A stretch of DNA of 64,000 bases from NCBI RefSeq assembly GCF_006346325.1, contig NZ_VDYR01000003.1, forward strand, positions 52,759-116,758, written 5' to 3'. The notes below the pieces were generated by a model that saw only the letters and a list, made by a program, of their open reading frames with translations, did not search any database and was not told where the DNA came from. Shown in pieces: positions 22,449 through 53,636 of this stretch. This stretch comes from Sphingomonas japonica (GTDB lineage: Bacteria > Pseudomonadota > Alphaproteobacteria > Sphingomonadales > Sphingomonadaceae). The position numbers and the translations under genes were made by a program. The first letter of the stretch is position 1. Every line of letters starts with the position of its first letter.

Positions 22449-22535
22449 GGACAGGTGGCCGAGTGGTTAAAGGCAGCAGACTGTAAATCTGCCCGGGTTT
22501 CCCGTACGCTGGTTCGAATCCAGCCCTGTCCACCA
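22449..22535 (+). tRNA. tRNA-Tyr (GTA)
   Basis: Class II tRNA of 87 nt with encoded CCA. The acceptor arm GGACAGG pairs with CCTGTCC. The anticodon loop CTGTAAA presents GTA. A long variable arm is followed by the T arm GGTTCGAATCC. The segment from the anticodon stem to just past the CCA is duplicated 3.2 kb downstream, so its 3' part is an integration site. Confidence 0.97.
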
Positions 22536-22539
22536 ACAC
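22479..22539 (+). repeat. attL: 61-bp repeat inside tRNA-Tyr
   Basis: 61 bases running from the 5' side of the anticodon loop through the CCA end and four further bases (ACAC) are identical to 25703-25763. Same orientation, plus an integrase gene just inside, makes this the integrase-side attachment site of an integrated element. Confidence 0.9.
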
Positions 22540-22590
22540 CTAAACCCGCTCGGACACTGGATAAATGGCCTTGCACCCGGCGCGGGGCAA

Positions 22591-23619
22591 TTAGCCGTCG
22601 TTCGCGACTTGGTGTAATTCTGGTGTAACTGTGTCAGAAATTGCGGTGTCGAGGGCGGCAACGGCGTCGTCGATGTGGACGCCGTGGATGTGCGAATAAT
22701 GTTCGACCGTCGCCGTTGTCTTGTGACCGCTAATCTTCTTGATGGTCAGCAGATCGACGCCAGCCTTTACCAGTCGCTTGATGGCGGTGTGCCGCATGAC
22801 GTGCGGCGTGCAATGCTTCGGGTCCATTCCGGCAGCTTTCACGCATCGGGCGAAGGTGTCCCGCATATCGCGCCGATGTTCGCTGGCGCTGTCCGATCGC
22901 AGGGCCGGGAAAATCCACCCGGCTTTGTCGGTTCGCATTTCCCGTTCGGCCTTGATCGCGTCACGTAACGAGGCGGTCATGGGCTGGTCGCGCTCGCCAG
23001 CCTTCGCGCTGTCGATCCAAATGCGGCTACTGGCAAAGTCGATCTCGTCGAAGCTGCGGCACATGATCTCGCTGTGTCGCATCGCCGCATTCAGCCCGAA
23101 CATGACAAATAGCCATGCGTGCGGGTCTTGGTCGGCCTTCGCTGCCTCGATCAGCCGGTTGCACTGCTGGGCGGTCAGCACGCGGATTTGTTTGCGCGCT
23201 TCCTTCTCCTTCGGAATGTCCGGCACCGCGTCGGGCTTGATCCACGCCCATCCCTTCGATGAAGCCCGGCGCATTAGGTGCGAGAACGTCGCCAACTCGC
23301 GGTTGATGGTGGCAGGCTTAGCGCCTTGATCGCCGCGGCGCATGCGGTACTGACGCAGCCGAAAATCGGTGATGTTGTCCAGGCGCTCGTCGCCAAGGAA
23401 CGGGACAAGGTAGGTGCGCAGGTGACGGCGCTTGTTTGCCATGTCCTTGCCATCCGTTTCCTCCATGCGCTCGATGTAGCTCTCTGCCGCCTCGGCGAAA
23501 CTGCGGTGCAACTTGCGTCCGCTGGGCAGGTTAAGGCGCTTCTCGCGGGCATAAGCTCGTATCCGACGTGATGCGGGAAGCGCGGGCAGAGGTGCGGCGC
23601 GGGTTGTTTGGGCAGGCAT
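22591..23619 (-). CDS. int: Tyrosine-type site-specific integrase
   Basis: 342 residues. A basic N-terminus and a SAM-like core-binding domain (about 40-135, YIERMEETDGK to FSHLMRRA) precede the catalytic domain. Catalytic residues: first Arg in LNAAMRHSEIM, HxxR as HVMRHTAI, the second His in ISGHKTTATVEHYSH and the nucleophile Tyr in that same segment (EHY). It promotes recombination between attP and the tRNA-Tyr attB. It points toward the tRNA; its stop lies 52 bases inside attL. Its final codons contain one of the double-GTGTAA motifs. No excisionase was recognised. Confidence 0.95.
   Translation of the reverse strand: MPAQTTRAAPLPALPASRRIRAYAREKRLNLPSGRKLHRSFAEAAESYIERMEETDGKDMANKRRHLRTYLVPFLGDERLDNITDFRLRQYRMRRGDQGAKPATINRELATFSHLMRRASSKGWAWIKPDAVPDIPKEKEARKQIRVLTAQQCNRLIEAAKADQDPHAWLFVMFGLNAAMRHSEIMCRSFDEIDFASSRIWIDSAKAGERDQPMTASLRDAIKAEREMRTDKAGWIFPALRSDSASEHRRDMRDTFARCVKAAGMDPKHCTPHVMRHTAIKRLVKAGVDLLTIKKISGHKTTATVEHYSHIHGVHIDDAVAALDTAISDTVTPELHQVANDG
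22612..22628 (+). promoter_or_regulatory. Candidate integrase arm-type site, left end
   Basis: GTGTAA-N5-GTGTAA, two hexamers one helical turn apart (11 bp), lies in the last codons of int and 73 bases inside attL. A near-identical copy in the same orientation lies inside attR (25567-25583). Arm-type integrase sites are short direct repeats placed this way; the role is inferred. Confidence 0.45.
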
Positions 23620-23865
23620 TGGGAAGGTCGAACGGCCCCGATCCCTTCGGCGAGTTTCGACCGGTTCGGGGTCGCAAGCGGCAACAGCCTAGCCGTGATC
23701 CGTGGTCTGAGTTCCAGGAGGTTCGTTAGACCAAAGGCGCGTCAGTCGATGGTGGCGTATGAAGCCGGGCGTCAACCCACGTTGAAAACAAACATAGCAC
23801 TGGCTTAGCTGATAGGGCTCAGGCATGCATTCGAAGGAACGTACTGATAAGGCAGGGTGCTTTTT

Positions 23866-25038
23866 ATGGACAGTTTGGTGAACTTGCGTAGAACACTGGC
23901 TATCGGTGTGCTGCTCGGTTGTGCGGCATGTAGCGGAGGGCAGCCAAGCAGCACCGGATCCGAGCCTCGGCCGCCTATACCCGTTCCGACCCCGACCCCG
24001 ACCCCGACCCCAACCCCGACCCCGACGCCGGAACCAGTCCTGGATCCGACACAGCTAGCGACCACTACGCTTCTTCCCTTTCCGATCGACCTTGCTAGAC
24101 CGTACCAGACAGCTTCGGGGGAGACTGTTGATGATATTATCGAACCCGAGTTCGATTATCCGTACATCGATTTGGCCACAGCGACGTCGCCCTATTATAT
24201 CAACGGCCTCAGCGGATTGGTTACCCTTGAATTCGATGGTTATTGGAGTGCGCCTGGCGGCAGCGCCACTCATGGGCTAGCATTGTGGTTTGATCCATCG
24301 CGTCCCAGTGCGGTTATTGAAGAATTTGGGAATAGTGATCGATTGGCTTTCCCCTCGGGCGATCTCGTCCGAAACACCCCAACAGAGATTTTGTTCGCGC
24401 GATATGCAAATATCGATAACTTTGTCATCGAAGATGCTTTGCAAATCTTAAAGAATGGGCCTGGAAGTAATCTTCCGCAATTTCGATATACGACCGCAGG
24501 TTTTCTTGGTCGAGGGCACGGGATTGTCCTTGCCGCAACTACTAACAGGCCATTTTCACAAGATCGTCGCTATTGGTTTGGGATAGGGTCAAGAACTAAA
24601 GAACCAGATTTGCCGACAGCAGGATCAGTTCAATTCTCTCAATTATTTCAACGCAGTAGTGGATACTTTAGGCCAGGGAATGTGTCAACTTACGACCTTG
24701 CAGGGATGCAAAGTTTTGAAGTAAAGGCTAGTGCCGCGGCATCTGTGGACTTCACCGAGAAAGTTGTGCATTTGGCGCTGAACATTCAGAATGGTGAAAC
24801 CTTTAGGTTGCCCTTGTCAGTTGAAATTGACGACACCACTCTTCGTCGAGAGCCGGGCTTCGGTGCGACATACGCTGCCACTATCGAGCAAAACGGATTG
24901 TTCATATCGCTGAAGTTTTGTATCAATGGCCCTGATGCAAATGAAGCAGTCTTAACTTATGCGGTACGTGATGATTTGAGCGGTGGTAACGACGCAATTG
25001 CTTACGGGATAGTTTTAATGAAAGCCGGCATGTCTTAA
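23866..25038 (+). CDS. Island-borne lipoprotein with Pro-Thr repeat
   Basis: 390 residues. A signal ending LLGCAAC offers a lipobox Cys, so it is probably a lipid-anchored surface or outer-membrane protein. Residues about 40-57 are alternating Pro-Thr, encoded by a tandem hexamer. The remaining 330 residues are beta-rich, with Tyr, Phe, Gly and Asn turns (YYINGLSGLVTLEFDGYW; HGLALWFDPS). This resembles the layout of lipoproteins with C-terminal barrel domains such as transferrin-binding-protein-like families, but no definite family is recognised. From about 24050 the codons are much AT-richer than neighbouring genes, a sign of recent transfer. ATG 23866 is preferred to GTG 23857. Confidence 0.75.
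   Translation: MDSLVNLRRTLAIGVLLGCAACSGGQPSSTGSEPRPPIPVPTPTPTPTPTPTPTPEPVLDPTQLATTTLLPFPIDLARPYQTASGETVDDIIEPEFDYPYIDLATATSPYYINGLSGLVTLEFDGYWSAPGGSATHGLALWFDPSRPSAVIEEFGNSDRLAFPSGDLVRNTPTEILFARYANIDNFVIEDALQILKNGPGSNLPQFRYTTAGFLGRGHGIVLAATTNRPFSQDRRYWFGIGSRTKEPDLPTAGSVQFSQLFQRSSGYFRPGNVSTYDLAGMQSFEVKASAAASVDFTEKVVHLALNIQNGETFRLPLSVEIDDTTLRREPGFGATYAATIEQNGLFISLKFCINGPDANEAVLTYAVRDDLSGGNDAIAYGIVLMKAGMS
23985..24026 (+). repeat. Hexanucleotide tandem repeat (CCCGAC)
   Basis: Seven hexamer units, mostly CCCGAC with one CCCAAC and one TCCGAC variant, encode the Pro-Thr linker of the island lipoprotein. Six-base units change linker length by two residues without shifting the frame, so slippage would vary length and not switch the gene off. 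Confidence 0.85.
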
Positions 25039-25145
25039 CGTCCCGCTCTGCGGCGCCCGGCTTACATCGGCCGCAGCGAAGCAGTGCTTGAACGCGCAGC
25101 CTTTTGCGGCACGATGCCGCGCCCGTGATTTTTGAGAAGCGGGCT

Positions 25146-25301
25146 ATGTGGTTCAAAGCCGCGATTGACGATGCGATTCAGCGAATGGGCGGTGACGCAA
25201 AGCCGGACTGGCGTACAAAGAGCCTCTTATATGCTGACCGCAACGCAGAGGGAGCGCTTCCCCCTCGGCGCGAGCGGAAACCTGAGGAGCCGAAGCAATG
25301 A
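25146..25301 (+). CDS. Small island ORF, 51 aa
   Basis: MWFKAAIDDAIQRMGGDAKP starts a 51-residue charged protein that ends PRRERKPEEPKQ. GAGAAGCGGG sits upstream of ATG 25146; an earlier in-frame TTG is less likely. Its stop overlaps the next ORF by 4 nt (ATGA), which supports both being translated. No family is recognised. Confidence 0.5.
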   Translation: MWFKAAIDDAIQRMGGDAKPDWRTKSLLYADRNAEGALPPRRERKPEEPKQ

Positions 25302-25561
25302 GCGCTAAGTTTGAAACGTGGAAACTTGGCGCTGGCTTGGCGCTCGCGATCATGCTGGCGGTCCTAGCCGGGATAATAGCTGTTGGCTTGCCCTTCCTGC
25401 TGCTCGGGCTGCTCTTGGAGGCAATGGGCTTCGGGCAGTTCGGGGCGGCGCTGGACACGCTTTCCATAGCGGGGATGGTCGCTGCTGTTCCGTATTTCAT
25501 CGGGCGCATTGTCTCTCGCTTCCTTGGCGATCTGAAAGCGGCGGACGCATCCGGTATCTGA
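25298..25561 (+). CDS. Small island membrane protein, 87 aa
   Basis: 87 residues with a first hydrophobic helix (GLALAIMLAVLAGIIAVGL), a second adjoining it (LPFLLLGLLLEAMGF) and a third, weaker segment (TLSIAGMVAAVPYFIG). It ends in a basic and acidic tail. ATG 25298 overlaps the preceding ORF by 4 nt and has GAGGAG upstream. It is the last gene before attR. No family is recognised; small membrane proteins on such elements may serve superinfection exclusion or defence, but nothing in the sequence shows it. Confidence 0.65.
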   Translation: MSAKFETWKLGAGLALAIMLAVLAGIIAVGLPFLLLGLLLEAMGFGQFGAALDTLSIAGMVAAVPYFIGRIVSRFLGDLKAADASGI

Positions 25562-25566
25562 GCATG

Positions 25567-25583
25567 GTGTAATTCGTGTGTAA
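25567..25583 (+). promoter_or_regulatory. Candidate integrase arm-type site, right end
   Basis: GTGTAATTCGTGTGTAA repeats the left-end motif with two differences in 17 bases and the same 11-bp spacing of the two GTGTAA hexamers. It begins just after the stop of the 87-aa ORF and lies about 120 bases inside attR. Confidence 0.45.
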
Positions 25584-25702
25584 TGGCGCAGGGTATTGCA
25601 CGGCAGTTTCGGGAATGTTCCAAACGCGAACGCGGCGCGAACAGGCCCGCGATTGCAGCGAGTCGGGAACGCACCGGAATTGTCCGGAATTGCAGGCGCA
25701 TT

Positions 25703-25763
25703 GACTGTAAATCTGCCCGGGTTTCCCGTACGCTGGTTCGAATCCAGCCCTGTCCACCAACAC
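25703..25763 (+). repeat. attR: displaced 3' fragment of tRNA-Tyr
   Basis: 61-bp perfect copy of 22479-22539, carrying the anticodon loop to CCA part of tRNA-Tyr with no 5' half, so it is not a functional tRNA. It marks the far end of the integrated element. The bases to its right should be the original chromosome downstream of tRNA-Tyr. The 119 bases between the double-GTGTAA motif and this repeat show no gene. Confidence 0.9.
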
Positions 25764-52577: not shown

Positions 52578-53636
52578 ATGACCGACGTCGCCAACCCGCT
52601 GGGTCTCGACGGATTCGAGTTCTGCGAATTCACGTCGCCCGATGCCGATGCGCTGGCACAGCAGTTCGAGATGATGGGATTCGTCGTGTCGCACCGGCAT
52701 CCGGCCAAGCAGGTCGTCCGCTATGTACAGGGCAACATCACGCTGCTGCTGAACCGTGAGGGCGAGGGGCAAGCGGCGGATTTCCGTGCCGCGCATGGTC
52801 CGTCGGCCAGCGGCATGGCGTTTCGCGTCGCCGATCCCAAGGCCGCCTATGACCATGCCGTGGCGGAGGGCGCGACGCCGGTTGATGCCGCGCGCGGGAC
52901 GCTAGGTGCCGAATCGTTCGCGATCGAAGGGATCGGCGGGTCGTATCTCTATCTGGTCCAGGCCGGGGCCGATCTCTACGCCGACTGGGACGAGGTGCCG
53001 GGATGGCGCGAGGCCGCGGCCCGGGAAAATGTCGGGCTCAAGCTGCTCGACCATCTTACCCACAATGTCCGCCGCGGTGAGATGCGGACCTGGTCGGGCT
53101 TCTACGCCCGGCTGTTCGGGTTCGAGGAGCAGAAGTTCTTCGATATCAAGGGCAAGGCGACGGCGCTGTTCAGTCAGGCGATGATCGCGCCCGACAAGGC
53201 GATCCGCATTCCGCTGAACGAATCCCAGGACGACAACAGCCAGATCGAGGAATTCATCCGCGAATATGGCGGCGAGGGCATCCAGCACCTTGCGCTCACC
53301 ACCGACGACATCTTCGCCACGGTGGAAAAGCTGCGTGAGCGCGGCGTCAGACTTCAGGACACGATCGAGACCTATTACGAGCTGGTCGACAAGCGCGTGC
53401 CTGGGCATGGCGAGGATCTCGAACGGCTCAAGCGCAACCGTATTCTGATCGACGGAAATGTTGGTGACGAGGGTATCTTGCTCCAGATCTTCACCGAGAA
53501 CATGGTCGGCCCGATCTTCTTCGAGATCATCCAGCGCAAGGGCAATGAGGGGTTCGGCAACGGCAATTTTCAGGCGCTGTTCGAAAGCATCGAGCTGGAC
53601 CAGATCCGGCGGGGCGTGGTGAAGGTCGACGCGTGA
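52578..53636 (+). CDS. hppD: 4-hydroxyphenylpyruvate dioxygenase
   Basis: 352 residues, usual length. It converts 4-hydroxyphenylpyruvate to homogentisate using Fe(II) and O2. Iron ligands are His near 160 (LLDHLTHNVRRG), His near 236 (GIQHLALTTDD) and Glu near 315 (FFEIIQRKG). GFYARLFGFEEQKFFDIKGK and the C-terminal GNFQALFESIELDQ(I)RRG are family hallmarks. ATG 52578 has GGAG 6 bases upstream; ATG 52566 is also in frame. It leads hmgA by 21 bases. Confidence 0.97.
   Translation: MTDVANPLGLDGFEFCEFTSPDADALAQQFEMMGFVVSHRHPAKQVVRYVQGNITLLLNREGEGQAADFRAAHGPSASGMAFRVADPKAAYDHAVAEGATPVDAARGTLGAESFAIEGIGGSYLYLVQAGADLYADWDEVPGWREAAARENVGLKLLDHLTHNVRRGEMRTWSGFYARLFGFEEQKFFDIKGKATALFSQAMIAPDKAIRIPLNESQDDNSQIEEFIREYGGEGIQHLALTTDDIFATVEKLRERGVRLQDTIETYYELVDKRVPGHGEDLERLKRNRILIDGNVGDEGILLQIFTENMVGPIFFEIIQRKGNEGFGNGNFQALFESIELDQIRRGVVKVDA

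Follow-up and report, generated by a model that had tools for sequence, protein, structure and literature searches.

Is the small insertion in a tyrosine tRNA gene of Sphingomonas japonica a minimal mobile element of a new kind, or what remains of a larger one? The insertion lies in a 64,000-nucleotide stretch of contig NZ_VDYR01000003.1 (forward-strand positions 52,759 to 116,758; hereafter the window), on contig C3 of a 2.86-Mb genome in six contigs (G000 in our set). A first-pass annotation, made from the letters of the window, had taken it for a minimal, satellite-like element and a candidate for an undescribed family. Comparison with related genomes led us to a different view: the 3.2-kb unit appears to derive by deletion from a larger family of islands, and the backbone genes of that family are absent from it. 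Most probably the unit is an internal deletion derivative of a tRNA-targeting sphingomonad island, similar to a cis-mobilizable element (CIME) and carrying a foreign lipoprotein gene.

The locus has the anatomy of a tRNA-targeting genomic island: an intact tRNA gene, a displaced 3' fragment of that gene standing as a direct repeat, and a tyrosine recombinase adjoining the attachment (att) site (coordinates in Table 1). ARAGORN found the tRNA-Tyr(GTA) gene complete, and a repeat search recovered the 61-bp repeat, its two copies 100% identical and spaced 3224 bp start to start, so that the first-pass annotation was right both about the perfect repeat bounding the insertion and about the preserved tRNA gene. 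The repeat starts at tRNA position 31, in the anticodon arm, which places it in the site class that the Islander paper calls anticodon-centred (PMC4383910), and it ends 4 nt beyond the CCA. The insertion proper measures 3,224 bp, from base 22536, just after the tRNA gene, to the CCA of the displaced copy at 25759. A 57-mer scan allowing up to 20 mismatches revealed no third copy in the whole 64-kb window. The gene content was also as described, with one tyrosine-recombinase open reading frame (ORF; hereafter int), one lipobox ORF, and two small ORFs, putative genes, coupled by a stop/start overlap (ATGA at 25298). Searches of these four ORFs against Pfam and PHROG gave no replication, packaging or transfer match beyond the integrase, in agreement with a cargo-only content. 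A promoter scan was uninformative (one promoter found versus 1.6 expected; one terminator found versus 4.7 expected).

We defined relatives of the integrase at E ≤ 1e-40. They occur, the host genome included, in at least 26 of 295 genomes of the genus (7 candidates scored per genome) and in at least 10 of 249 sampled genomes of the wider family (8 candidates scored per genome), and the cargo domain occurs in 2 of 265 genus genomes, again with the host counted; the element is not part of the core genome. With two further copies, from the Sphingomonadaceae metagenome-assembled genome L047 and from a Sphingomonas parapaucimobilis plasmid record, the set for comparison comprised 37 copies besides that in the window: 12 outside the genus scan (10 places in 9 genomes, L047 and the plasmid copy) and 25 within it. 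A tRNA gene (Tyr, Leu, Cys or Phe) stands beside int in 11 of the former, G232 being the exception, and within 500 bp of int in 21 of the latter; among the remaining four, two (G484 and G501) are found at contig ends, one (G378) is more than 1 kb from its tRNA gene, and the last (G352) has no tRNA gene nearby. In a core-domain tree, the window integrase is sister (support 0.999) to the copy in G426, a 12.3-kb element likewise located in tRNA-Tyr whose integrase core is 71% identical, and the pair falls within a tRNA-Tyr group with G200 and L047. No second integrase of the family was found in the host genome, where the next-best matches are 22-34% identical. The window integrase belongs to a sphingomonad family of tRNA-targeting islands.

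Within this family the window copy is incomplete. In full-length relatives a domain of about 70 residues precedes the core-binding domain, and it is present in 33 of the 37 other copies (8 of 12 outside the genus scan and 25 of 25 within it). Two of the four copies without it, G010 and G140a, are open but truncated, at break points that differ from that of the window copy, and the other two, G140b and G232, contain stops; a re-check of all frames located no such domain adjoining int in any of the four. In the window, protein homology begins only at about residue 20-24 in the alignment, and similarity to relatives at the DNA level ends at about 23535-23550 by blastn. Pfam named no domain in the N-terminal region of the relatives. 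The position and length of this region and the presence of arm motifs lead us to take it as the arm-binding domain of complex tyrosine recombinases. That domain is called essential for mobility in PMC8138268.

The missing segment would extend to the genes that flank int in its relatives. Just inside int these carry an Arc-type gene (PF03869 above its cut-off in three of four tested) and a divergent AlpA-type gene (in the single copy tested it matches HTH_17 and an excisionase PHROG). Outside the genus scan, AlpA stands beside int in seven of eight full-length copies (G013, the exception, is cut by a contig end); in the genus set it does so in 22 of 25, where two of the three misses had short stretches only. 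The window element holds no trace of the N-terminal domain or of the Arc-like and AlpA-like genes (best E 0.55), and none of the matches scored in the 295 genus and 249 family genomes (7-8 candidates per genome) shares its truncation junction. Lacking both the N-terminal integrase domain and the AlpA-type gene just inside int, the window element is classed here as a derivative, not a full member, of what we call the sphingomonad int-Arc-AlpA island family.

The ends of the element tell a different story from its interior. Most of the copies first compared contain, in or just beyond the 3' end of int, a two-part motif of roughly GTGTAATTCnnGTGTAA. We built a weight matrix from 11 integrase-side copies, that of the window included (without the poor copy G140b; G232 did not form part of the set), and scored the whole 64 kb; the two best places are the two ends of the element (Table 1), the next best reaching 11.5, and the distal motif had no part in building the matrix. 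Across the 2.86-Mb genome, the pattern with up to two mismatches occurs at three places, namely both element ends with no mismatch and one other with two, and a control pattern occurs at none. At a threshold of 17, the integrase-side motif is present in 19 of the 25 genus copies; those below it are G426, G261, G352, G378, G450 and, at a contig end, G501. The integrase-side motif lies within the coding 3' end of int, so that its conservation has protein as well as DNA reasons; the distal copy lies outside any int gene.

In 13 relatives we located both a 3' copy of the tRNA gene and a distal motif; these are 10 genus copies plus G221, G194 and G072. The 10 come from 19 genus copies for which about 18-20 kb was read (six more were read over 2-4 kb only); the other nine showed no far end in that span and may be longer or damaged. 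The gap between distal motif and att is 106-118 bp in 12 of the 13 relatives and 138 bp in G194, with groups at 107 and 117 that differ by about one helical turn; in the window it is 118 bp. The window element therefore shares with the family arm motifs at both ends and a near-fixed distal spacing, and, judged from these features, its ends look intact.

The relatives with both ends located are larger than the 3.2-kb window element, measuring 9.0, 9.8, 10.8, 10.9, 11.0, 11.4, 12.1, 12.3, 13.6, 13.9, 14.5, 19.6 and 35.5 kb. A serine-recombinase-like cluster recurs in 11 of 12 elements compared (Resolvase confirmed by Pfam in the one tested), and a protein of about 450 residues in 8 of 12. The latter matched phrog_4756, of unknown function, in all three copies tested; no Pfam match was obtained in four tested, nor any phage match or viral-contig relative, with only chance matches in PDB and, among plasmids, only the one record already known. 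Examples are L191:15667-17070, L197:15466-16812 and L198:3787-5256, with five more relatives, and the protein is also present in L082 and G384. It has the conserved motifs E-[IVL]-D-[ILV]-S and P-[VIL]-H-D-[SA], which may resemble motifs A and C of the family A DNA polymerases. Cargo in these elements includes AriAB in G306 (E 1.9e-189), an ATPase matching the PDC-M29A and AriA models in G356, a ThsB-type TIR protein and 8xMP in G426, and a cytosine methyltransferase, an HNH protein and Vsr in the plasmid copy. In that last record (NZ_CP155757.1; L082:5505-7999) the integrase lies at a tRNA-Leu gene of a 138-kb S. parapaucimobilis "plasmid", near the DNA cytosine methyltransferase, HNH and Vsr genes; the replicon may be a piece of chromosome, since it also holds rpsA, aroA and cmk.

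If the insertion is an island, its site should be empty in other genomes, as the first-pass annotation expected, and this could be followed on one side. At all 24 same-genus loci returned, tRNA-Tyr comes next after an M28 peptidase gene, and the 0.36-1.3 kb read past it holds no integrase of the family; in G200 and G384, the tRNA-Tyr beside the M28 gene is occupied by a full-length family copy. The tRNA-Tyr site therefore appears variably occupied. Four other tRNA-Tyr copies (G426, G306, G221 and L047) had no M28 gene in the stretch read. The expected junction of both flanks, by contrast, was not found: the matches listed from the 295 genus genomes (two candidates scored per genome) included none that continues from att into the right flank, and at E 1e-8 no ORF of at least 80 residues downstream of tRNA-Tyr in the 24 loci matched the window. 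Conservation of the right flank was thus not seen in these comparisons. Methyltransferase relatives were tried as right-flank markers and rejected, as none of 22 loci had a tRNA-Tyr gene nearby. In G415, a second tRNA-Tyr fragment of 57 bp lies 7.8 kb from the tRNA gene (L133:3052-10929), the two enclosing genes for a hybrid histidine kinase and a GGDEF protein; no family arm motif was found at this fragment.

From this anatomy, an ancestral island would have inserted at the anticodon region of tRNA-Tyr by integrase-mediated recombination, its own 3' part rebuilding the tRNA gene and the original 3' part being displaced to the far end. Later, or already in the donor, a deletion would have taken the first ~70 codons of int and, to judge from the relatives, the neighboring Arc-type, AlpA-type and other backbone genes, leaving the pair of att repeats, the arm motif at each end and a single block of foreign cargo. 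Since it has neither an arm-binding domain nor an AlpA-type partner, and no other integrase of the family was found in the genome, the element is probably stuck, unable to move alone. Its intact ends might nonetheless allow excision in trans by the full-length integrase of an incoming relative, so that it could be mobilized as proposed for CIMEs.

Several observations weigh against a deletion. The nearest relative, G426, has no integrase-side arm motif at the threshold used, and AlpA is undetectable too in a full-length copy of the genus, G457, for which 20 kb was read. The deletion is deduced from backbone comparison only, because no undeleted relative with the same cargo was found, and the difference in size is biased, as no far end appeared in nine of the 19 genus copies for which ~18-20 kb was read, and the sizes come from copies that showed one. 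The state of the integrase is ambiguous as well. Its core frame is open, its branch is shorter than that of its sister (0.154 versus 0.271), and it keeps 67 of 72 near-invariant residues, comparable to its closest relatives (69/74 and 68/73), the truncated copies G010 and G140a keeping 60/72 and 59/72; this test is soft, because divergent full-length copies also score low (G194 57/79, G352 63/75). The truncation thus looks recent, or the core is still used: an open core without fast evolution, together with identical att copies, agrees with a recent deletion and would agree too with a short integrase that still works.

Among the alternatives, the unit may have arrived already deleted, as a non-autonomous element carried in trans by a full-length relative, which we consider unlikely. 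Its ends have the right geometry, its att repeats are identical, and no helper is left in the genome. Moreover, deleted units do exist beside full ones: on contig C2 of G072 (L080, L142), a 35-kb island at a tRNA-Phe gene has a unit of 2.56 kb in tandem behind it, and a further tRNA-Phe fragment bounds this unit. Of the integrase-side end the unit retains the first ~110 bp (88% identical), and of int only the last ~14 residues; it also carries HSP70-like and DUF2092 genes. That unit, however, could equally have decayed in place, and no second insertion of the window's deleted unit was found. Nor does the identity of the att copies date the insertion tightly, since near-identical copies are common in full relatives (0-11 differences over 57 positions in 13 relatives, 0-2 in six). 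The broader proposal of a non-autonomous mini-island that is still mobile, with both ends intact, moved by its own short integrase or by full-length relatives in trans and spreading a new small-family lipoprotein, strikes us as rather improbable.

Less probable again is a working minimal element, in which the short integrase would be a tyrosine recombinase of the simple type, needing no arm-binding domain, and would by itself mobilize the 3.2-kb unit. Simple recombinases are found in a minority of phages and integrative and conjugative elements (ICEs), according to PMC8138268, and the open 342-codon frame, a core as well conserved as those of the nearest relatives and the perfect 61-bp repeats would all suit one. 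Yet the window keeps the arm motifs that the N-terminal domain of 33 of 37 relatives would bind, there is no AlpA-type partner, the open-core truncated copies G010 and G140a break elsewhere, and the window's own junction was unseen among the genus and family matches scored. Finally, a phage satellite like P4 or the phage-inducible chromosomal islands is a very remote prospect: the parent elements, many of them 9-15 kb, resemble satellites in occupying tRNA genes and in having int, AlpA and genes for defence, but no packaging, capsid or helper-interference match was obtained in the window ORFs (Pfam, PHROG) or in the parent proteins scanned (10 by Pfam, five by PHROGs, the parents being only partly annotated).

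The lipoprotein gene, the cargo of the element, has 50.7% G+C versus 65.6% for the window. Initial hits in 139 of 249 family genomes were rejected as matches to the lipobox and Pro-Thr linker, since with the linker removed only the host genome remained (1 of 248) and no match was obtained in the 247 others; low-complexity masking of 15 such loci left a single match, at E 0.69. In 264 other genus genomes the protein has one relative, in G415 (29% identity over 310 residues, E 3.5e-17). That relative is encoded by a single gene (L212:9676-10851) with no tRNA gene within the 20 kb read, and the two proteins share an LPQxRYxT / DRRYWF block. A tblastn search of 202 loci, run before the G415 relative came to light, found none of the window cargo in relatives, and searches of plasmids, phages, viral contigs and PDB gave no match, or in PDB only one of E 1. 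AlphaFold2 without an alignment yielded a mean predicted local distance difference test (pLDDT) score of 31.5 for the lipoprotein domain. The NCBIfam model slam_lipo is touched by the G415 relative (E 0.0063), far below the cut-off (16.8 bits against 80), but not by the window protein, and the host genome encodes a SlipAM protein above cut-off; a Slam-exported surface lipoprotein of the Slam/TbpB type is for these reasons only a lead, and a doubtful one, and exposure of the protein at the cell surface is a weak perhaps. The two small ORFs are putative genes, neither with a convincing relative: matches to ORF B in nine other genomes (E 0.002-0.008) fall in longer frames and were set aside as chance resemblance between membrane segments.

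Table 1. Features of the tRNA-Tyr insertion, numbered from the first base of the window.
Feature	Position	Strand	Basis
tRNA-Tyr(GTA), target gene, intact	22449..22535	+	ARAGORN
att repeat, integrase side, 61 bp	22479..22539	+	repeat search
Tyrosine recombinase ORF, 342 aa; core-binding and catalytic domains, without N-terminal (putative arm-binding) domain	22591..23619	-	PF00589, E 2.9e-25; alignment
Arm motif GGTGTAATTCTGGTGTAAC, integrase side, within 3' end of int	22611..22629	+	weight-matrix score 31.1 (one of 11 matrix copies); exact pattern
Approximate junction where homology to relatives ends (inferred deletion breakpoint)	23535..23560	.	blastn; protein alignment
Lipoprotein gene, 390 aa; lipobox-like LLGC, Pro-Thr linker, near-orphan domain, 50.7% G+C	23866..25038 (alternative start 23857)	+	lipobox read by eye
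Small ORF A, 65 aa from TTG or 51 aa from ATG at 25146; no relatives found	25104..25301	+	
Small ORF B, 87 aa, hydrophobic; overlaps stop of ORF A (ATGA)	25298..25561	+	
Distal arm motif GGTGTAATTCGTGTGTAAT	25566..25584	+	score 29.0, outside matrix training set
Spacer, 118 bp, distal arm motif to att, partly conserved with relatives	25585..25702	+	80-81% identity blocks versus G221
Distal att repeat, displaced 3' part of tRNA-Tyr gene	25703..25763	+	repeat search

Together, the results suggest that tiny insertions of an integrase plus cargo are not necessarily minimal mobile families, and that conserved ends can reveal their origin by deletion. The motif at the ends, with its spacing, also provides a simple means to delimit a sphingomonad island family bearing anti-phage genes, and if related integrases do excise such remnants in trans, the remnants would be a reservoir of cargo and not dead ends. 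Among the papers listed in a literature search, judged by title and opening of the abstract, none described this sphingomonad island family; they were general papers on islands, defence and satellites.

Among known systems, CIMEs, as defined in PMC5704250, share with the window element the state of a decayed integrated element that keeps both att ends; the window element differs in that it retains the core of an integrase, part of which is lost, and in that its parent is not established as an ICE or an integrative and mobilizable element. The tRNA-gene islands of Islander (PMC4383910) have in common with it the intact tRNA gene, the displaced 3' fragment, a tyrosine integrase, an anticodon-type site and a length above the 2-kb filter, whereas the window integrase has no N-terminal domain and no gene for excision control was found. 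The sphingomonad int-Arc-AlpA family itself (for example G426 at 12.3 kb, G306 at 9.8 kb and the copy in NZ_CP155757.1) has the same distal arm motif and spacing and, in G426, the same tRNA-Tyr target. Unlike the window element, its members have a full-length integrase, usually AlpA, a serine-recombinase-like protein (11 of 12) and a phrog_4756-like protein (8 of 12), and those scanned carry defence-like cargo (AriAB, ThsB-TIR, DNA methyltransferase).

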